Shown here: one piece after another, positions 31,890-45,097 of the stretch
Layout of the letters: each line of letters starts with the position of its first letter
Position numbering within the stretch: position 1 is the stretch's first letter
DNA from: Bacillota bacterium
GTDB taxonomy: Bacteria; Bacillota; Clostridia; Lachnospirales; Bianqueaceae
NCBI GenBank assembly: GCA_017442535.1
Contig: JAFRZL010000027.1
Location: 1 to 64,000, forward strand
Direction: 5' to 3'
DNA: 64,000 nt
Translations under genes and position numbers: made by a program
Notes under the pieces: model-generated
The model's database searches: none
The model's input: only the letters and a program-made list of their open reading frames with translations
Told to the model about the DNA's origin: nothing

Positions 31890-32491
31890 TGCACCTTAAT
31901 ATCTTTTTCCTCTGGACGTGATGTTAAATGGAGGAAAAACTCATACTGCTCCAGTTTGTCCCAAACATTAATATGCATGTGACGCTGGATATCAAAAGGG
32001 ACAATCAGTTCACATTTGCTATGTGGTGGAAGCATAATCCCGGCATATCCCTCCAGAACCGGATTCAGCGCAATAAGAAGCCACCGGTTCACCCCGGCAA
32101 AAGTGTCAAACCCATGCAGCCTCATGTCTGTCGGAGCAAACCCTTCTGTTTCATTATCTTCATTATAGATCGTTATTTTAACAATAGCCAATTTTGACGA
32201 CGACGGATAGTAGATATCTTCGGATATGTTTTTTTCTGCCAGATAGTCCTCGTATTCTGTTATCTCAAAGCTGTTCACCTGCACATAATACCCGTCAAGA
32301 ATTCTGCCATTGATTTGATCTTTTTCCAAAGGGACCATCTCGCCTAACTGATAGATTTCACGAACCGGCAAAGGATTCTGTTGTCTCCATTTGGCGTTAA
32401 AAGTGACATAACGGATTATCCATAGTGCAATCAAAACGCAGCTGATTCCTATTATCAAAATGGTCCTCTTAGGATTCCTCTTCGCAAACAT
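31886..32491 (-). CDS. membrane-anchored accessory protein of the ABC operon (second)
   Basis: Encodes 201 residues from an ATG at 32491 with GTGGAGAAG just upstream; the longer frame to 32533 lacks a better site. One N-terminal membrane segment (RTILIIGISCVLIALWIIRY) is followed by an extracytoplasmic domain with VQVNSFEITEYEDYL and PPHSKCELIVPFDIQ. Its plan matches the next gene (single anchor plus beta-rich domain with a polar late segment), so the two may be distant paralogues. It overlaps the ATPase gene by 23 bases. The family was not recognised with confidence. Confidence 0.7.
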   Translation of the reverse strand: MFAKRNPKRTILIIGISCVLIALWIIRYVTFNAKWRQQNPLPVREIYQLGEMVPLEKDQINGRILDGYYVQVNSFEITEYEDYLAEKNISEDIYYPSSSKLAIVKITIYNEDNETEGFAPTDMRLHGFDTFAGVNRWLLIALNPVLEGYAGIMLPPHSKCELIVPFDIQRHMHINVWDKLEQYEFFLHLTSRPEEKDIKVQ

Positions 32492-33128
32492 TTCTCTTCT
32501 CCACTTTTCCCTCTGTAACATAATACAGCTCATCTGCCAGACTCCTCAGAAAAAGGCCGTCATGGCTTGCAATAACAATCAGAGCGCCTCGTTCTTTCTC
32601 TTTCAGGATGATATTGCAAATCAGTGCTACTCCCACTTCATCCAAGGCATTGGTTGGCTCATCCAATAACAATAAGGCAGGCTGTTCCATGATAGCCGCC
32701 GCAATACCTAGCCTTTGTTTCATTCCAAGAGAATACTTATAGTATTTACGTCTATCATTTGGATCCAAACCAATCTTTTGAAGGGTTTGAATGATTTGGT
32801 CCTTTTGAATGACCTGTTTGATATCCGCAAGAAGTTCCAGGTTTCTTAAGCCGGTATATGCGTCAATGAAAGCTGGTGCTTCTATAAGGATGCCCATCGA
32901 AGGCGGAAAATCCATGTCGATGCCCAGTTCTTTATCATCAATCAAAACATGTCCTGAGGTTGGTTTAATCAATCCGCTGATCAGGCGCAGCAGCATAGTC
33001 TTGCCTGATCCATTCGGTCCCTGAAGTCCATAAATCTTTCCGCTCTGTAAAGAAACCGAGACATGGTTCAATATCAAAGCCTTGCGAATATATTTCGTTG
33101 CGTCTTTAATCTCAATCTTCATCGCCAT
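32469..33128 (-). CDS. ABC transporter ATP-binding protein
   Basis: Encodes 219 residues. The ATG at 33128 was chosen because it overlaps the upstream stop as TGATG and has GGAGAG 6 bases before it. Walker A GPNGSGKT, signature YSLGMKQRLGIAAAI and Walker B ALLLLDEPTNALD are intact, followed by the switch His in VIASHDG. The short Q-loop region and single domain match ABC-2 exporters of the bacteriocin-immunity or peptide-export kind. It pairs with the two permeases encoded just upstream. Confidence 0.93.
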   Translation of the reverse strand: MAMKIEIKDATKYIRKALILNHVSVSLQSGKIYGLQGPNGSGKTMLLRLISGLIKPTSGHVLIDDKELGIDMDFPPSMGILIEAPAFIDAYTGLRNLELLADIKQVIQKDQIIQTLQKIGLDPNDRRKYYKYSLGMKQRLGIAAAIMEQPALLLLDEPTNALDEVGVALICNIILKEKERGALIVIASHDGLFLRSLADELYYVTEGKVEKRNVCEEES

Positions 33129-33946
33129 CACTCTCTCCATTTGATAATATCTTTTCTCCGAAACCCTATCGCACCCATTACGATGCTTCCAACCATCACC
33201 ACTGTATTTGCCAATATTTCCATCCCCACATTCATAAAACCAGGATGAAGTATCCCGCTTCTGATTGCCATCGCAGCGTTGCCCATCAAAACAGGGAACG
33301 GTAAAAGAACCGATAATTCCATAATCATAAACACGAAAAAAAAACTAAAGACAGGTGGGATGAAGATGCAAAGCGCCATTTGCAGAAGAGACGCCGCCGC
33401 AAGTGTAAAAAATGGCATCAGAATGGCGGCAAAAGCCAGTTTTCCCCCATCCTGAAGTGTGATCTCTGCTACATTATAGGTGCCTACCGAAACCTCCGAT
33501 ATTTGGGTCAGGGTACTTTCCCCTCCTTTGATTACGCAAAAGAACCAAGCAACCACTGCCATTTCTATGAAATAAACCATTGTACTTGCAATATTCCACA
33601 TGCATTTTGAAATGAACCATTGTGTTCGGCTTGCACTGCGAACAATAATCTGCTGCCCTGCATTGTCAAGATCATAAAGCAAATAATCCAGATTGACCAG
33701 TAATAATCCCCCCACCAATGAAAGCCATTGTACAGGCAATATTACTTTATCAAGCGAATTCAGATAAATTGGTTCACACCCAAAAAAGAAAAAACACAGA
33801 TAATCCAGCCATGTACCAGGCATTCCCAGTGCTGTTGTGATCCTGCTACTGATATAACACGGAATAATAAAGAGCAAAGGGAGCCATAAATATCTTTTTC
33901 TTAATAATCCTGTCCTAAAGTCATGCTGCAGCAGTTTATAATTCAT
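33128..33946 (-). CDS. ABC-2-type permease subunit
   Basis: Encodes 272 residues with about six hydrophobic segments, for example YLWLPLLFIIPCYISS and WLSLVGGLLLVNLDYLLYD. The N-terminus MNYKLLQHDFRTGLLRKRY resembles the cytoplasmic start of ABC-2 permeases. It overlaps the preceding permease gene by 11 bases and shares TGATG with the ATPase gene, so all three are translated together. Substrate unknown; peptide export or self-protection is suggested by context. Confidence 0.82.
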   Translation of the reverse strand: MNYKLLQHDFRTGLLRKRYLWLPLLFIIPCYISSRITTALGMPGTWLDYLCFFFFGCEPIYLNSLDKVILPVQWLSLVGGLLLVNLDYLLYDLDNAGQQIIVRSASRTQWFISKCMWNIASTMVYFIEMAVVAWFFCVIKGGESTLTQISEVSVGTYNVAEITLQDGGKLAFAAILMPFFTLAAASLLQMALCIFIPPVFSFFFVFMIMELSVLLPFPVLMGNAAMAIRSGILHPGFMNVGMEILANTVVMVGSIVMGAIGFRRKDIIKWRE

Positions 33947-34721
33947 GCTTTACCACCTGCCAGTATCCCAGGCCAATATCCAATGCTGCAAATAATCCCA
34001 TCTCTGAAAAAATGATCCAGCCAGGATTAGCGGAAAGGGTACCTGCCTTTGCCAGTTCCATCGGACATACCTCATAAAGCGTAAAATTGGGACCATATAA
34101 AAAAGTATTTAATATGATCTCTAATGCAAGCAGCACCAAATAAGGCGTCAGAATAACCATGACCTGAAAAGTTGGTTTCGAGCCTACAACCAAACAAAAA
34201 CAGGCAATCACGCCTCCCCACAGAAAATCCACCAAGCACCAGATGAATAGAAACAACCATAGATTCGAGTGATAAAGCGAAGATAAAAAATAACCATTCA
34301 CGAGAGCATTCATTCCACTTAAAACATGTGGCATTTCATACGGATGAAACAATGCTAAAATGAGTATGTTCAGCAATATTGGAATGCTCATTACAATCCC
34401 GCCGGAAATAAAAACAGCCATAAATTTAGCCCAAAAGAATTCTTTCCGGCAAACTCGTGCCTCTATCTGAATATAGGATTGATCTTTTTTCTCTTTCCAA
34501 AAGGACCAACCGTAGGGAAGCGCCACCAGGATCGGCCAGAAAAAGAAAAAGAGTGCTGACCCCAGGTTTGTAGGAGAAACAATCATACAAACACCATACA
34601 GAGGCCCATTACCGGTTAATATCGCATCCAAAACGGCAAAAAGAACGCCTGCAGTAAGTGCAATGTAAAACTTAATGTTATGCGTTGCTTTCCACAACTC
34701 TACTCTAAGTATGCTCTGCAT
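33936..34721 (-). CDS. ABC-2-type permease subunit
   Basis: Encodes 261 residues, starting MQSILRVELWKATHNIKFYI with GGGAGG 6 bases upstream. About six hydrophobic segments are visible. KATHNIKFYIAL followed by a hydrophobic stretch, and the Lys/Trp-rich loop LPYGWSFWKEKKDQSY, are typical of lantibiotic-immunity-like ABC-2 permeases. It is the first of five overlapping genes (two permeases, ATPase, two anchored proteins). A terminator-like hairpin at 34746-34788 separates it from the secreted-protein gene upstream. Confidence 0.82.
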   Translation of the reverse strand: MQSILRVELWKATHNIKFYIALTAGVLFAVLDAILTGNGPLYGVCMIVSPTNLGSALFFFFWPILVALPYGWSFWKEKKDQSYIQIEARVCRKEFFWAKFMAVFISGGIVMSIPILLNILILALFHPYEMPHVLSGMNALVNGYFLSSLYHSNLWLFLFIWCLVDFLWGGVIACFCLVVGSKPTFQVMVILTPYLVLLALEIILNTFLYGPNFTLYEVCPMELAKAGTLSANPGWIIFSEMGLFAALDIGLGYWQVVKHEL

Positions 34722-34745
34722 GATATCCTCCCAAAAAGAATAATT

Positions 34746-34788
34746 CAGGGAGAAGGGAACAACAAATATACTAGTTCCTTTCTCCCTG
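34746..34788 (-). terminator. Attenuator-like terminator between the secreted-protein gene and the ABC operon
   Basis: On the minus strand CAGGGAGAA and TTCTCCCTG, extended by GGAAC/GTTCC with a one-base slip, form a strong hairpin. The tail AATTATTC then CTTTTTG is only partly T-rich. Partial read-through would give much secreted protein and less transporter from one promoter. Confidence 0.65.
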
Positions 34789-34798
34789 GTTCTAACTT

Positions 34799-35278
34799 TT
34801 ACATATGAGCATCAGTATGGGTAAGTGCACTATCTGGACTCCACCACCCGGAAATCTCATCTCCTAAAACATTAGGACAGCGGAATCCTAGAAGGGCAAA
34901 ATCATAATCATCCTCATAAATATAGGAATGAACACTATGTTCTATTCCACGATAACAGGTAACATGATCCACCGGATACGACGAGATATCAGGGTCAACT
35001 GTTTCATTGACTTTTGTCGATGCAGAAATATTATTTGTGCCGTAGGCACGCACATAAACCCGATCTCGTTTCCCATCAGTAATATACACATAAACTGGAG
35101 ACCAATCCTGTTTCAATCTGGCTGGAGTATGATATGTGTAATAGAAAAAACTTGCCCCAAATTGTGTGATTGCAGTGTCCGTAGTATTCGCCGCGTTTGC
35201 TGATGTGGAAAAACCCCATACGGAAATCAATGTGATGAGGGCCAACACCAGCGAGAGAACCTTCTTGCTTTTGATCAT
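34799..35278 (-). CDS. secreted small protein (resembles DUF2712)
   Basis: Encodes 159 residues with AGGAGG upstream of the ATG. A clear signal peptide (KKVLSLVLALITLISVWGFS, then ANAANTTD) gives a mature protein of about 130 residues. The mature part has many Tyr and Thr, two Cys (VTCYRGIE and GFRCPNV) that might pair, and the C-terminal phrase SGWWSPDSA. From memory, small secreted Firmicutes proteins of the DUF2712 type share this ending and are often beside ABC transporters; this was not searched. It may be the exported effector or bacteriocin-like product of the island. Its own promoter lies at 35338-35366. Confidence 0.65.
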   Translation of the reverse strand: MIKSKKVLSLVLALITLISVWGFSTSANAANTTDTAITQFGASFFYYTYHTPARLKQDWSPVYVYITDGKRDRVYVRAYGTNNISASTKVNETVDPDISSYPVDHVTCYRGIEHSVHSYIYEDDYDFALLGFRCPNVLGDEISGWWSPDSALTHTDAHM

Positions 35279-35438: not shown

Positions 35439-36581
35439 TTATAGTATAATAATAGACGTAAACATATCTTCTGTTTTCTCAGCTCTTACCGAATATCCAT
35501 ACTTCCTTGCAACATTCTGAGATCGTCTGAGGCCATATCCGTGTCCTTCTTTTTTATCAGTCTTCTGTGAAAGGTCGTACTTGTTTTGAATTCGGATAAA
35601 TGGTTCTTCTCCACACAACTCAACATTTATCACCCGATTGCTTTGCAGCATTTGTACCGCGTTCATGGCATTCTCCAGCAGATTCCCCACAATGGTGCTT
35701 GTGTCTTTTTCATCCGGTTTCCATGGAGGCAACTGAGGTGTTGCAGAAATTCTCAAATCAATCTCCCTTTTCTGACACTCTTGCGCATACTGCCTCAGTA
35801 CGCTCTCCAGTGCGAAATCCAGCCCTTCCAAAATCTGTTCCTGTTGATCTTGCTCGGATGCGAACTCGCCCTGATTCGTCCTGGAAAGTCGGATCCACTT
35901 GTCAAAATCGTGCTGACGATAATCCCGCTCCGCCAACTTAATGCTGTACTCATCCTGCATTTTCGTAAGCTGTTTGTTTCGTTCTACACTATATAAAATC
36001 AACGTCACAAATTGTGTAAGAATCATGAGGCCGGATACCCACTTTGCAATGTCCCAATAGTTGCCGCGTATTTCTGTCCTGAACCGCTGGCAAACATATA
36101 GCATTGCAGCTGCGGCAATTAAGACTACCCAGAAAAATGGTTTTTTCTTGAGAATACTAGTATCAAGCTTGACGGCTTTTCGAACAAACCATATCCCTGC
36201 TGTGCAAATAAAGAACACCATACAATTCATTAATAATCCATTATGATCTACTGCAACAAACACAAACCATTTCTGCGGTATCCAAATGATAATAAAAGCC
36301 TGAAGATACAGCAGAACAACAGCATATCCAAGAATCCCGCACCACAATGTTTCTTTCAGAGATCTATGTGCATAAAAGCATTTGATCCACAGGCACATTA
36401 TGAGCAGCTGAATCCAAACGGGAATATCCAAATTCCAGATATTAGTTGCTGCAATCTGGGCTGCTATCAGAGCTGCTCCTAATAGTAAAGCCCAAGTTCT
36501 GTCCCACTTTCCTTCCTGGTCATACCCTACAGCTAAAACCGTGCACATCTCCATAAGAGTTGAAAACGCATGAACTAACAT
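35439..36581 (-). CDS. GHKL-domain sensor histidine kinase (AgrC-like)
   Basis: Encodes 380 residues. The ATG at 36581 has AGGAGG 9 bases upstream; a GTG three codons earlier is rejected because it overlaps that site. The N-terminal about 200 residues hold six or seven membrane segments with short loops, as in AgrC-type peptide receptors. The phospho-acceptor region is RQHDFDKW (His near 224). The GHKL ATPase part has NLLENAMNAV (N-box) and EGHGYGLRRS (G-box). It is divergent from agrB-agrD, with only 32 bases between start codons, so it is the likely receptor for the AgrD-derived peptide. Confidence 0.88.
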   Translation of the reverse strand: MLVHAFSTLMEMCTVLAVGYDQEGKWDRTWALLLGAALIAAQIAATNIWNLDIPVWIQLLIMCLWIKCFYAHRSLKETLWCGILGYAVVLLYLQAFIIIWIPQKWFVFVAVDHNGLLMNCMVFFICTAGIWFVRKAVKLDTSILKKKPFFWVVLIAAAAMLYVCQRFRTEIRGNYWDIAKWVSGLMILTQFVTLILYSVERNKQLTKMQDEYSIKLAERDYRQHDFDKWIRLSRTNQGEFASEQDQQEQILEGLDFALESVLRQYAQECQKREIDLRISATPQLPPWKPDEKDTSTIVGNLLENAMNAVQMLQSNRVINVELCGEEPFIRIQNKYDLSQKTDKKEGHGYGLRRSQNVARKYGYSVRAEKTEDMFTSIIIL

Positions 36582-36613
36582 AAATATCACCTCCTAAAGG
36601 ACATTCGATTACC

Positions 36614-37204
36614 ATGAAAACACATTCTCTCTTATCACCCTTTGCCAAATCCGGGCAGTTTTCAGAAGAAGAACTACAATACATCAATTATGCCCTGTTC
36701 GCATTGACAAACGAACTTTCAAAAACACTGGTGTATGGAATCCTCTTTTATTTCCTAGGCAAACTGCGCGGGTTCTTGTTCCTATGTATCATCATTCTAC
36801 CGCTTCGATGGTTCTGCGGCGGATTTCACTGCAAAACACTGATACGCTGTTTCGTATGCAGTCTTATTTGGATAACAGCTCTACTCTATCTTCCTCTGCT
36901 GATGACTGCTAATAGCATTGACATCCTAGGCCTTTTTAATCTGGCAATGGCTCCTCTTATCTTGTCTCGAATCCCCTATACTCCTCCTATACGTCAAATT
37001 AAAAATCCTCGAAAAATAAAACGTCTTCGCATTTTTGCTGTAATCGACATCCTACTATGTGTCACTCTTTGCCTCTGTTTGAAAGTATATCATGCAGATT
37101 ATTCTTTGATAGGCCTTTCCGCTCTTGCCAGCGTTCAAATACAATTATTCATACCAAAGAGAAAGGAGGCGAAACCGTTATGCAGAAAATCATCTATATT
37201 ATAG
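36614..37204 (+). CDS. agrB: AgrB-like peptide-processing membrane endopeptidase
   Basis: Encodes 196 residues, the usual AgrB size, with about five hydrophobic segments. The catalytic pair is visible: LRWFCGGFHCKT with His72, and Cys79 seven residues later, the same spacing as His77/Cys84 of Staphylococcus AgrB; the conserved Arg and GG before the His are also present. AgrB cuts the C-terminal tail of AgrD and forms a thiolactone or lactone ring. The 3' end overlaps the agrD-like ORF by 25 bases. Only a weak AAAGGA precedes the ATG. Confidence 0.9.
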   Translation: MKTHSLLSPFAKSGQFSEEELQYINYALFALTNELSKTLVYGILFYFLGKLRGFLFLCIIILPLRWFCGGFHCKTLIRCFVCSLIWITALLYLPLLMTANSIDILGLFNLAMAPLILSRIPYTPPIRQIKNPRKIKRLRIFAVIDILLCVTLCLCLKVYHADYSLIGLSALASVQIQLFIPKRKEAKPLCRKSSIL

Positions 37205-37302
37205 GCAAGCTGTTAGGCAAACTAGCCTATCTCTTTGCTAACACTGCCACAACAGGATGGAACGGAGAAGTGAATATCCCTGACACTTTACGCGATCAGT
37301 AA
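37180..37302 (+). CDS. agrD: AgrD-like signalling peptide precursor without Cys or Ser
   Basis: Encodes 40 residues with AAAGGAGG 10 bases before the ATG, inside the end of agrB. The layout fits AgrD: an amphipathic N-terminal helix (MQKIIYIIGKLLGKLAYLF), a short middle segment (ANTATTGWNGEVN) and an acidic C-terminal tail (IPDTLRDQ) resembling the conserved P-E/D-x-L recruitment motif. Usual precursors have a Cys, or rarely Ser, for ring closure. Here the candidate nucleophiles are only Thr22, Thr24 and Thr25. A terminator follows at once. Confidence 0.75.
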   Translation: MQKIIYIIGKLLGKLAYLFANTATTGWNGEVNIPDTLRDQ

Positions 37303-37326
37303 CAACATCTTTCAAACCCAGCATGA

Positions 37327-37357
37327 AAATAGCTATGGAAATCTTCCATAGCTATTT
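37327..37357. terminator. Bidirectional terminator between agrD and the response regulator gene
   Basis: AAATAGCTATGGAA and TTCCATAGCTATTT form a perfect 14-bp stem with a 3-base loop. A-rich and T-rich flanks on both sides serve the convergent transcripts. Confidence 0.88.
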
Positions 37358-37417
37358 TATCATAGAGAATATGCTATTTCAAGCCCACTGCAGAAAAAGA
37401 CAAAAATGGATTTGGAA

Positions 37418-38227
37418 TTATTGATTGTTTATGTATTTCTTCTTCAACAAGGACGCTCTTCTTCGGCTGGCATGAAATGATCTGACAGTCTGTCTCATAA
37501 TCACTTCCACACCATTATCATCATTTATGGATATGTCCTCCATCATCCACGGATTAATATACACTTTCCGGTCTATCTCGAATAGCCGGCCGGACTCGGC
37601 AAGGGTCAGGATATCCTTTTGGATGCTCTTAAAAGCTTCATGATATCGTGGGATCAGATGCTGGCAGTCCGGATCATCCATTATCTCGCTATCCGAAAAG
37701 ACCTTCAGATTAATCCCTTTATCATCAATAGTTACCCAAATGATCCGCTCAGCGCCGATCCGGTTCTGGTCCCAGCATAGGTGGATCGGGCTCCTGGGCG
37801 GCTGCGCGCGGTAGCGGCCCAGGAAAGTGCCAAGCTCCTGCTTAAATGCAGTCAATTCTTTCTTGGTGAAAAACCGATCGATAGAGTATTCCGCCTTGAT
37901 CGCAGCAGAGAGGAAGCCCAGGCTACTCAGGCACCAGACACGCCTGGCAGGATCTTCCTTTAATTCGTTCAGAACTGCATAACCGCCCTCTGCCGAATGA
38001 TAAATCATTATGTCGATCAGATACAGATCATAGGCTTCGGTTTTGGTTTTATGGAGTGCTTCCGGGGCGTTGTCCACCCAGTCTATATTGTGCTGGGCCA
38101 GATACTGGAAGACTTCTACTTTGTCCGCTGCAGGGGCGTCTTCTTCAAAGATTTCCGCCACCAGCCGTGTAAAAATACAGACATCCAGCCACTCGTCTTC
38201 CAGATACAGGATTCTTTTCTCTCTCAT
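37418..38227 (-). CDS. response regulator-like protein with possible LytTR-type output
   Basis: Encodes 269 residues from an ATG at 38227 that overlaps the dnaE stop (ATGA). A receiver domain is visible: ILYLEDEW (acidic pair), phospho-acceptor Asp72 in YLIDIMI, Ser near 101 (WCLSSLG) and Lys in FFTKKEL. A linker leads to a C-terminal region with IIWVTIDDKGINLKVFSD, LFEIDRKVYINPWMMEDI and a basic end RRRASLLKKKY, which resembles a divergent LytTR DNA-binding domain. LytTR regulators serve Agr-type kinases, and the agr-like genes lie just beyond the terminator, so it is a candidate AgrA counterpart. The pairing is inference. Confidence 0.65.
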   Translation of the reverse strand: MREKRILYLEDEWLDVCIFTRLVAEIFEEDAPAADKVEVFQYLAQHNIDWVDNAPEALHKTKTEAYDLYLIDIMIYHSAEGGYAVLNELKEDPARRVWCLSSLGFLSAAIKAEYSIDRFFTKKELTAFKQELGTFLGRYRAQPPRSPIHLCWDQNRIGAERIIWVTIDDKGINLKVFSDSEIMDDPDCQHLIPRYHEAFKSIQKDILTLAESGRLFEIDRKVYINPWMMEDISINDDNGVEVIMRQTVRSFHASRRRASLLKKKYINNQ

Positions 38228-41200
38228 CGCCATACCACCGAATCCTCTCCCAGCATCTGCTGCAGGATCGTCACAAGCTCGCTGCTGCGCGAGACACGGT
38301 AGCGGGCAGGGGCGCGGAGACGCTGTTTTTCAGCAGCGAGATAGAGGTAGAGGTCATTGGGACCCGGGTAGTGCGAGAGAATGTCCAGGACGGCGGGCTG
38401 CAGATGCTGCCATTCGGCATCGCTCCGGAAACGCAGCCAGAGGACGCGGCGCGGCTCCTGCGGGGCCGCTGCGGCCTGTCCGGGGGCCTGAAGTGGACGG
38501 CCTCCACCGGCCTGTGGTGCGATGGGGGCGCGGTCCTGGTACATGCGGCGGTAGACGCCCTGGCCGGCGTCCAGAGCTCCCTCCTGTCCAAACGGAGCGA
38601 TGGTCTGGGCGATCAGCTTGGCGTCTTCGTCGTCCGAGCCGCTGACGCGCCCGCGCACAAAGATCTTGGCGTCCTCCACCAGGCTATCCTTTACATCCTC
38701 ATAGGTCTGCGGGAAGCAAAGGACTTCCACGGTGCCGAACAGATCCTCGATGGTCAGGAAGGCCATCATTTTGTTGGACTTGGTGATCTTGCGCTGGACA
38801 TGGGTCAGTATGCCGCCGATGGTGGCCGTCTCGCCATCCGTCACATTGCAGCGTTCCTCTTCCTCATCCCATACAAAGTCGGCCGAGGTGCGGCTGATGG
38901 TGCGGCGCCATTTGTCCTCGTATTCCTCCAGGGGATGGCCGGTCAGGTAGATGCCGAGCACTTCCTTTTCCAGGGCGAGTTTCTCTTCCTTCTCGTACTC
39001 CTCCGTACCGGGCAGACGGTCCTTCAAATCATCGTTGTTTTCCTCCAGGCCAAAGAGATCCACCTGGCCGCTCATGGCATTCTTGTACCACTGAATAGCG
39101 GCTCCCATGATGATATTGCAGTTGTCGAGGTATTCTTTACGGGTGCCGCCGAGCGAATCAAAGGCGCCAGCCTTGATCAGGCTCTCCAGTACCTTGCGGT
39201 TCATATCGGCGCCCTGCATGCGGCGGCAGAAATCGGTCAGGCTGATGAAACGGCCGTTCTTCTTCCGCTCCTCCACGATGCGGTCCACGATCGTCTGGCC
39301 CACACCCTTGATGCTGGATAGTCCGTAGCGGATCCGGTGATCCGAAGACACCGAAAAACCGGTGTATCCTTCGTTGATATCCGGGGAGGTGAGCTCGATA
39401 TTCATGGATTTCAGGCTCTCGATGTAGCCCGCCACTTTGCCGGGATGATCGATCACGGAGGTCAGCAGGGCCGCCATGAATTCCACCGGATAATGCACCT
39501 TGAGCCAGGCGGTCTGCAGGGCGACCACGGCGTAGCAGGTCGCGTGCGCCTTGTTAAAGGCATATTTGGCAAAGTCCGTCATCTCGTCAAAGATCTTGAC
39601 GGCGGCCTCTTCGCTGACACCGCGCTTCACGCAGCCCTCGACGCCCTCGGCCTCATTGCCGTGCACAAAGTACTCCTGTTCCTTGGCCATGACATCGGCC
39701 TTTTTCTTGGACATGGCGCGGCGCACCAGGTCCGAACGGCCCATGGTATAGCCGGCCAGATCCCGTACGATCTGCATGACCTGCTCCTGGTAGACAATGC
39801 AGCCATAGGTGCTCTTCAGAATGGGTTCCAGCTGCGGCGTTGTATACTGAATGGCATCCGCGTTGCGCTTGCCCGCGATATATTTGGGGATAAAGTCCAT
39901 CGGGCCCGGCCGGTACAGGCTGATGCCTGCAATGATATCTTCGATATTGTTCGGATGCAGCTCCTTCATGAAGGAGGTCATGCCCGCGCTTTCCAGCTGG
40001 AAGACGCCCACAGTGCGGCCGGACGAGATCATCTGGTAGACTTCCGGATCATCCATCGGAATATCGTCCGCCTTGATATCGATCCCGTACTGCTCCTTCA
40101 CCAGGTCCAGTGTATCGCGGATGACGGTCAGGGTGCGCAGCCCCAGGAAGTCCATTTTGAGGAGGCCAAGCTCCTCGATGGTGGTCATGGTGAACTGGGT
40201 GACGGGGACGCCGTCATTGGTGGCGAGCGGCACATAATCCATGACCGGGCGCTTCGCGATCACGACACCCGCCGCGTGCGTGGAAGTATGCCGGGGCAGA
40301 CCTTCCAGACGTTTGGAAGTGTCGATCAGGCGGTGTACATTCTCATCATTCTGATAAAGTGCGGACAGCTCGGAATTGACCTCCAGCGCGCGGTCGATCG
40401 TGATGCCCAGGTCTCTGGGGATCATCTTGGCGATCTTGTCCGCTTCTGCGTAGGGCAGATCCAGCGCGCGCCCTACGTCACGGATCACCAGCCTGGCCGC
40501 CATTGTACCGAAGGTGATGATCTGGGAGACGCAGTCCTCGCCGTACTTGCGGGTCACGTAGTCGATGACCTCCTGGCGGCGCCGGTAGCAGAAATCCACG
40601 TCAAAATCGGGCATGCTGACGCGCTCCGGATTCAGGAATCTTTCAAAGACCAGCTGATACCGGATCGGGTCGATGTCCGTAATACGAATGGCGTAGGCAA
40701 TAATACTGCCCGCGCCGGAACCGCGGCCGGGCCCCACCATGATGCCGACGGATTTGGCATAGTGGATGAAATCCCAGACGATCAGATAATAATCCACATA
40801 CCCCATGTTCTCGATGACGCTGAGCTCGTATTCGGCACGTTCGCGGATCTCGGGGGTAATTTCGGCATAGCGCTCCTTAAGGCCCTGCTCGGTCAGATGA
40901 CGCAGATAGCTCGGGGAGGTAAAGCCCTCCGGCACTTCAAAATGCGGCAGCTTCAGCTCGTGGAAGCGGAATTCCACCTGGCAGCGCTCCGCGATCTTAC
41001 AGGTATTCTCCAGCGCCTGGGGCGCGTAGGGGAACCGGTCCGACATTTCGTCGGGGGATTTCAGGTAGTACTGGCCTCCCTCGTAGCGCATGCGGTCCTC
41101 ATCCGTCACCTTTTTGCCGGTCTGGATGCAGAGCAGGATATCGTGCGCTTCCGCGTCTTCTTTATACGTATAGTGAACGTCATTGGTGCAGACAAGCTCA

Positions 41201-43293: not shown

Positions 43294-44425
43294 TCAATAC
43301 TCTTCGTTTCTGCCCGACTCACGGTCACTCTTCCACATGAGATAGGCATTCATAAACGGCATCAGATCGCCATCCATCACGCCCTGGATATCGGACGTTT
43401 CCTCTCCGGTCCTCAGGTCTTTCACCATCGTATACGGACAGAAAACATAGGAGCGGATCTGGCTGCCCCAGGCATTGTCTTTGACTTCGCCGCGGATATC
43501 GGCGAATTTCTCGCGCTGCTTCTCCTGCTCGATCTCGTAGAGCTTGGCCTTAAGCATCTGCATGGCCTTGTCCTTGTTCTGATACTGGGAGCGCTCATTC
43601 TGGCACTGCACCACGATACCGGTCGGCATATGCGTAATACGGATCGCCGAACTGGTCTTATTGACCTTCTGTCCGCCCGCACCGCTGGAACGGAAAATAT
43701 CGATCCGGATATCATCCGGATTGATGTCCACCTTGATGGAATCATCCAGCTCCGGCATCAAATCACACGAAGCAAAGGACGTATGTCTGCGTCCCGACGA
43801 ATCAAAAGGCGAAATCCTGACCAGGCGGTGAATCCCCTTCTCGGACTGCAGATATCCATAGGCATTCAGTCCGTTGACCTGGAATGTCACGGACTTGATC
43901 CCGGCTTCATCGCCCTCCTGATAGTCCAGCACTTCCGTCTTAAAGCCCTGCTGCTCACACCAGCGCGAATACATCCGGTACAGCATCTCCGTCCAGTCAC
44001 AAGCCTCCGTACCGCCCGCACCCGCATGCAGCGTCACAATCGCATTATGCGAATCAAACTCACCCGAAAGAAGCGTCTGCAGCCGGTATTTCTGATAGCT
44101 TTCCTTGAAATCGGCGATCCCCGCGGCAACCTCATCCGCCAGAGAATCATCATCCTCCTCGATCGCCATCTCAAGCAGCGTACAAGCATCCTCATAGCTG
44201 CTCACCACACGCTCATAATCAGCGAGCTTATTCTTAAGCGCCCCGGCCTCAGACAAAATACGCTGACTACGCTCACTATCATTCCAGAAATCCGGCTCAG
44301 AAGCCATCAAATCATACTCCTGAATTTTATTCCTGATTTGAGCGGGGTTAAAGTGAATCACCCAACTCAGCAACAGCACTCTTGTACTTCTCGAGCTCCT
44401 GCTTAAACTCCTCATACACAAGCAT
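43294..44425 (-). CDS. prfB: peptide chain release factor 2, expressed by +1 frameshift
   Basis: The product needs two frames. Frame 1 starts at ATG 44425 (GAGGGTGA upstream), encodes MLVYEEFKQELEKYKSAVAE then LGDSL, and stops at TAA 44348-44350. Frame 2 continues after skipping the T at 44350, reading NPAQIRNKIQEYDLMASEPD and on to the stop at 43294. Total is about 376 residues, normal for RF2. The SPF motif (ISPFDSSGRRHTS) that reads stop codons and GAGGQKVNKT (GGQ, peptide release) are intact. RF2 ends translation at UGA and UAA. Frameshifting normally autoregulates it. Confidence 0.93.
44345..44366 (-). promoter_or_regulatory. prfB programmed +1 frameshift site with TAA stop
   Basis: The slippery codon and stop read CTT TAA C, where nearly all known bacterial sites read CTT TGA C. 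GGGTGAT, which can pair with the 3' end of 16S rRNA, lies 4 bases before CTT and may act as the stimulatory Shine-Dalgarno-like element. Confidence 0.85.
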
Positions 44426-44493
44426 CTGAAAATCACCCTCTCTGTTGTAAAAGTATAATATAGAATCCCCAAAAAAGGACTCAAACGATATGA

Positions 44494-44658
44494 GATATCG
44501 GGTTTCATAATACGGAGACGCACGTGCTCGCACGGGCGGAGCCGGATTTGAAACCCGTATGACACGAGTGGTGCAAGCCACTCGTGTCAGAGCCGCGCTG
44601 CAAGCGCGGCGAATATCGGCCTGATCAAAGCATTTACCCACTGCCTATGGCTGATCCG
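44494..44658. repeat. 165-bp structured repeat, copy A
   Basis: It begins GATATCGGGTTTCATAA and ends GCCTATGGCTGATCCG. Inside are an 8-bp stem GGGTTTCA/TGAAACCC enclosing a CGTGC/GCACG hairpin, a 12-bp hairpin with arms TGACACGAGTGG and CCACTCGTGTCA (44560-44589), and the hairpin GCCGCGCT/AGCGCGGC. Copy B at 44933-45097 has the same length and about 89 percent identity by eye. Confidence 0.85.
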
Positions 44659-44932
44659 TCCATAAAACGGTTTAACAGGGGCGGCGGATTTACATGCATC
44701 AATGCACGACGTAAGACGATTCAAGCCCGAGCTCGAGCAGACAACCGTCAATGTTGCATGTGTCGCCCCCACACGAGCGGCGAAGGACGCAGTCCGAAAG
44801 CCGCGAGTGCCACAGCCGCACAAGAGCGCGCAGCGCGGGTGCGGCGTGAACCCACGATAAATCCCGGGGGCAAATCCATGTCTATCTGTAATATCATAGC
44901 CAAATATCAGTACTGTTATAGGCTTTGACTTA
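44659..44932. other. non-coding spacer between the repeats with its own dyads
   Basis: No credible gene is seen. GGGGCG/CGCCCC and ACATGCA/TGCATGT pair as nested arms across about 100 bases (44681-44770), and GCCGCAC/GTGCGGC flank another stem near 44814-44843. The phrase GGCGGATTT near its start resembles part of the flanking repeats, so this may be a diverged relative. Confidence 0.4.
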
Positions 44933-45097
44933 GATATCGGGTTTCATAAGCCGGAAACAGCCGTGCTCGCACGGGCGGAGCCGGATTTGAAACCCGTCTG
45001 ACACTCGCGCCGGCAGGCGCGAGTGTCAGAGCCGCGCTGCAAGCGCGGCGAATATCGGCCTGATCAAAGCATTTACCCACTGCCTATGGCTGATCCG
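44933..45097. repeat. 165-bp structured repeat, copy B
   Basis: Direct repeat of copy A, 439 bases away start to start and 30 bases beyond the secA stop. The middle hairpin (44999-45028) has arms TGACACTCGCGC and GCGCGAGTGTCA: the outer six pairs equal copy A, while four of the six inner pairs differ on both sides so that pairing is kept. The last about 70 bases are identical to copy A. Confidence 0.85.

Follow-up and report, generated by a model that had tools for sequence, protein, structure and literature searches.

AgrB closes the ring of the agr signal peptide while removing the C-terminal part of its precursor, AgrD (PMC10885120). Ring closure on Ser as a lactone is described for Staphylococcus pseudintermedius, at the same position as Thr24 of the precursor reported here (PMC3673130; PMC12312760, accessible part). 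In Clostridium thermocellum the AgrD ring spans Ser25-Phe29, with the cut before Tyr30 and a conserved Pro35 (PMC5322536). Cys and Ser are the sole ring residues named in the accessible part of a primer from 2025 (PMC12312760). In the partly accessible literature searched by full text and judged by title and abstract, no paper reporting a Thr-closed agr peptide was found; subscription papers lie largely outside the scope of that search, and absence is not proof. Threonine is not mentioned in PMC3673130 or PMC5322536, and appears in PMC13220807 only in other contexts.

The locus studied here lies in a stretch of 64,000 nucleotides, referred to as the window. As read from its sequence, it is a complete four-gene agr-type quorum-sensing system, comprising a precursor, AgrB, a GHKL kinase and a response regulator. 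Its features are as follows.

35439..36581, minus strand: agrC-like GHKL sensor kinase (PF14501, E 2e-12), divergent neighbour of agrB in four genomes.
36614..37204, plus strand: agrB, membrane protease cutting and cyclising AgrD (PF04647, E 5e-24; H72/C79 invariant).
37164..37169, plus strand: agrD ribosome binding site (AGGAGG), read from the sequence, 10 nt ahead of the start codon.
37180..37302, plus strand: agrD, signal precursor of 40 aa; an ORF matching TIGR04223 under cut-off, best match of the leave-family-out AgrD profile and conserved beside AgrB in the window's family.
37323..37363, unstranded: strong hairpin in the agrD-agrA interval, probably a terminator acting in both directions (-19.1 kcal/mol, z -5.9).
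37418..38233, minus strand: agrA-like gene for a response regulator of a divergent LytTR type, facing agrD convergently in four genomes.

AgrB scores 85 bits against PF04647 (cut-off 23), and the agrC-like kinase 47 bits against PF14501 (cut-off 22). The agrA-like regulator of the window is under cut-off for both Response_reg (E 7e-6) and LytTR (E 0.16); its syntenic counterparts in two relatives (G004 and G007) are above cut-off for LytTR. A single AgrB was found in the window's own genome, the assembly of which is about 80% complete, and a search of the PDB by sequence found no solved AgrB relative. The preliminary description held that AgrB retains its His/Cys pair with the standard spacing, for which AgrB of S. 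aureus serves as the reference, and this is borne out: H72 and C79 are seven apart and invariant across the four family AgrBs.

The kinase gene has an ATG at 36581, preceded by AGGAGG (36595-36590); its reading frame stays open as far as a GTG at 36590. As agrC and agrB diverge with their start codons only 32 bases apart (36582-36613), there is no room for ordinary promoters between them, and the 5' ends of the two genes may overlap as antisense transcripts. A promoter scan gave signal no higher than in shuffles, and a search for paired regulator sites found none that was convincing. On the 3' side of agrC (32469-35278, minus strand) are a secreted protein of 159 aa with a weak DUF2712 match and an ABC transporter, the ATPase of which is closest to lantibiotic-protection ABC proteins (TIGR03740); together these are a candidate target of the agr system. 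The secreted proteins encoded near agr in G007 showed no detectable relatedness to those of the window. CPBP/Rce1-like membrane proteases are found on the contig that contains the window, beyond the window itself (C7 96209-96466), and adjoining agrA in G007 (L033 8421-9356), and are candidates for a leader-trimming, MroQ-like step. Elsewhere in the window, two minus-strand ORFs (44348-44641 and 44916-45080) open with an almost identical stretch (MGKCFDQADIRRACSAALT...), and thus carry repeated sequence.

The agrD ORF overlaps agrB at its 3' end: the ATG of agrD, at 37180, lies among the final codons of agrB but in a different frame, and the agrD stop codon ends at 37302. The product is MQKIIYIIGKLLGKLAYLFANTATTGWNGEVNIPDTLRDQ. 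Cys and Ser are absent from all 40 residues, and the core is also without Lys. It has been described before as a 40-residue ORF behind agrB with a strong ribosome binding site and the AgrD layout, which agrees with the AGGAGG noted above and with the leader, core and Glu/Pro tail found beside agrB. Among NCBIfam models its best match is TIGR04223 (quorum_AgrD), over residues 3-37 (E 0.0064, 16.6 bits), under the curated cut-off of 19. The window AgrD thus departs from the classical type both in its score and in carrying Thr24 where Cys or Ser is expected. With a profile made from 139 AgrD sequences, all from outside the window's taxonomic family, the ORF scores best of 1717 open segments in the window (E 0.0019, against 0.51 for the runner-up), with T24 aligned to the consensus Cys column. 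By profile match and layout, this ORF is a genuine AgrD that lacks Cys and Ser.

Rings were placed with an anchor in the tail, where position +2 after the AgrB cut is Glu or Gln and position +6 is Pro; in S. aureus AgrD the tail after the cut is DEVEVP. In the window precursor this alignment (x-E-x-x-x-P) gives T24-T25-G26-W27-N28 followed by G29-E30-V-N-I-P34, with Thr24 at position -5 from the predicted cut. As the anchor puts the cut after N28, Thr24 would be the direct stand-in for the ring Cys.

37249..37263, plus strand: predicted ring T24-T25-G26-W27-N28, with predicted ring-closing Thr24 at 37249-37251 and predicted cut after Asn28 (placed by the Glu and Pro of the tail; T24 aligns with the ring Cys).

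The earlier suggestion that Thr is the sole ring-forming option is supported. Two further Thr residues, T22 and T25, are possible ring residues.

AgrB is present in 4 of the 19 genomes of the window's family. Within the genus of the window, neither of the two other genomes has it, which makes the distribution of the system patchy. The gene order is the same in all four AgrB-bearing genomes, with agrC divergent, agrB followed by agrD, and the agrA-like regulator convergent. AgrD lies directly behind every AgrB, including that of a second pair in G004. The cores and tails of the other four family AgrDs, separated by a slash at the predicted cut, are given below.

G004, syntenic AgrD: TIGII/GEIELP.
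G007 AgrD: TFGLV/GEIEPP.
G005 AgrD: SIGLI/GEVVPP.
G004, second AgrB-AgrD pair: SWGLN/YEPELP.

Across the five family AgrDs, that of the window included, position -5 is Thr in three and Ser in two, position -3 is Gly in all five, and the remaining ring positions vary. None has a Cys in the core; the syntenic precursor of G004 carries two Cys, both in the leader. The AIP core of S. pseudintermedius/intermedius also has the form hydroxyl-x-Gly-x-x. Of the two features singled out beforehand as possibly conserved in homologous pairs, Thr or Gly-Trp, a hydroxyl residue at -5 and the Gly persist in all five AgrDs, and the Trp does not. It had also been proposed that relatives with Cys at the Thr position, or an ORF not conserved beside AgrB, would speak against the interpretation; no relative has Cys there, and the ORF is conserved in 4/4 AgrB-bearing family genomes. 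TIGR04223 misses the other three Thr/Ser-Gly AgrDs of syntenic loci entirely, and thus this subgroup can escape routine annotation. The agr locus of G004 (L032 53-3173) adjoins a radical SAM/SPASM peptide maturase, a subtilisin-like protease and a LoaP-like antiterminator, which suggests control of a modified-peptide cluster.

The wider survey took in AgrB neighbourhoods from 392 genomes of the order and 391 of the class. AgrD was detectable beside 145 of 211 distinct AgrB copies, with a profile detection that may miss odd types. Thirty AgrD loci from across the phylum, chosen by a Cys-favouring model, were added. Among 168 distinct AgrDs from outside the family, the ring residue is Cys in 130, Ser in 34 and Thr in none. 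The anchor left 4 unplaced, of which three have a Cys and one (L160) has Ser and Thr, spaced differently. The family differs from the outside set in Thr (Fisher, p 1e-5) and in Gly at ring position 3 (p 6e-6), values uncorrected for shared descent. The family AgrD profile found no further Thr-type AgrD over the 392 genomes of the order, and a regular-expression scan of the 66 AgrB neighbourhoods lacking a detected AgrD found no Thr at -5. An AgrB pattern search of genome contigs found no relative with the window protein alone as query; with an alignment it recovered the three known family loci and one distant locus from a termite gut. The same type of search found none in viral contigs.

A distant AgrD-like ORF from a termite gut (L095, about 2499-2657) has KPALW/GEEICP, with Lys at -5 instead of Cys, Ser or Thr; its product may be a lactam, or the ring may be larger.

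The four window-like AgrBs group as a single clade in the AgrB tree (SH-aLRT 99), and the closest AgrB to this clade is paired with an AgrD that carries the Ser ring SFGLV. Thus, Thr may have arisen among hydroxyl-closing systems.

The signal of the window is probably a cyclic lactone made by AgrB, closed on the Thr24 hydroxyl and sensed by the adjacent kinase. AgrB would cut AgrD after Asn28 and hold the peptide as a thioester on Cys79, which the side-chain hydroxyl of Thr24 would attack, giving the five-residue ring Thr-Thr-Gly-Trp-Asn with a Thr ester. The conserved Gly at ring position 3 probably aids a backbone turn that brings the hydroxyl, a weaker nucleophile, within reach. The leader would be trimmed by a second protease to a short tail from ...ANTA, and the secreted peptide would be sensed by the kinase, which in turn would signal to the adjacent regulator. 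An ester ring on Thr24 is the simplest reading because His72 and Cys79 are kept and so is Thr or Ser at the ring-closing position. It is further favoured by the position of T24 in the ring-Cys column of an independent profile, by the Gly at -3, by the four-gene arrangement shared by four genomes and by the nearness of the AgrB clade to a Ser-ring AgrB, Ser lactones being known elsewhere. Against it count the greater hindrance of the Thr hydroxyl relative to Ser or Cys, the window regulator and AgrD being under curated cut-offs, the alternatives T22 and T25 (in the window alone) and the small number of Thr-type sequences (three in this analysis). We know of no agr precedent for a Thr-closed ring.

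Three options had been raised for the signal, a Thr lactone, a linear peptide or a different modification, and given Thr (three) or Ser (two) at -5 together with an invariant Gly at -3 in the five family AgrDs, the first is clearly favoured over the other two. A linear peptide, cut by AgrB without ring closure, would suit an AgrD without Cys or Ser, and hydrolysis of the AgrB thioester would yield one; but it needs no Thr or Ser at -5, yet one is kept in five divergent AgrDs while most core residues vary, and we consider it quite unlikely. The conservation pattern bears equally on closure at another Thr of the window precursor, T25 (a four-residue ring) or T22 (a seven-residue ring). Both are present, and some surveyed AgrDs do have Cys one or two places further away, but at neither position does the family conserve a hydroxyl or thiol; only position 24 and Gly26 are conserved, making such a ring very unlikely. 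That the locus is decayed and its ring Cys lost by mutation would accord with the patchiness of agr in the family (AgrB in 4/19 genomes), but is scarcely credible with all four window genes open and the hydroxyl and Gly pattern kept by other family genomes. A mutated precursor was accordingly rejected as a reading, the Thr/Ser and Gly pattern being conserved in the family with no Cys at the Thr position.

A different end product from the same chemistry is the cyclic pentapeptide amide cyclo(TTGWN). AgrB would first make the Thr ester; trimming of the tail would then free the Thr amine, and an O-to-N acyl shift would convert the ester to the amide. Rearrangement to such rings is described for tail-free agr peptides of Listeria and similarly for Ruminiclostridium cellulolyticum, and was also seen with a lactone analogue (48% in 22 h; PMC11297923). 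The shift is, however, far slower for a lactone than for a thiolactone, and trimming would have to end exactly before Thr24, to which nothing points. By analogy, the shift would be plausible if the tail were fully trimmed, but as the final signal the amide is unlikely.

Returning to the Thr24 lactone, we find it reasonably likely that an AgrB lineage closing the ring on a secondary alcohol makes Thr-lactone AIPs with a conserved (Thr/Ser)-x-Gly-x-x ring, which is undescribed for agr in the literature searched. If true, agr signal chemistry would widen from Cys and Ser to Thr, and AgrB acyl transfer would tolerate a secondary alcohol. The Thr/Ser-Gly AgrDs point to a precursor group missed by the standard AgrD model.

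By gene content and conservation in the family, the agr system of the window is real and conserved, with Thr replacing the ring Cys/Ser. Its closest counterparts differ in several respects. The agr system of Staphylococcus pseudintermedius/intermedius shares the AgrB-AgrD pair, a hydroxyl residue in the Cys position and the lactone, which is predicted here (PMC3673130; PMC12312760, accessible part), but it uses Ser rather than Thr, is arranged as one agrBDCA operon and belongs to a distant host. AgrD of C. thermocellum (Clo1313_2818) is likewise clostridial, with a hydroxyl-closed five-residue ring, as predicted here, and an equal distance from cut to Pro, but it has Ser and no neighbouring agr genes were recognised; its product has been observed by LC-MS/MS (PMC5322536). 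GBAP of the Enterococcus faecalis fsr system is also a Ser lactone made by an AgrB relative (PMC12312760, accessible part), but has a nine-residue ring and a precursor inside the fsrB sequence (PMC3673130).
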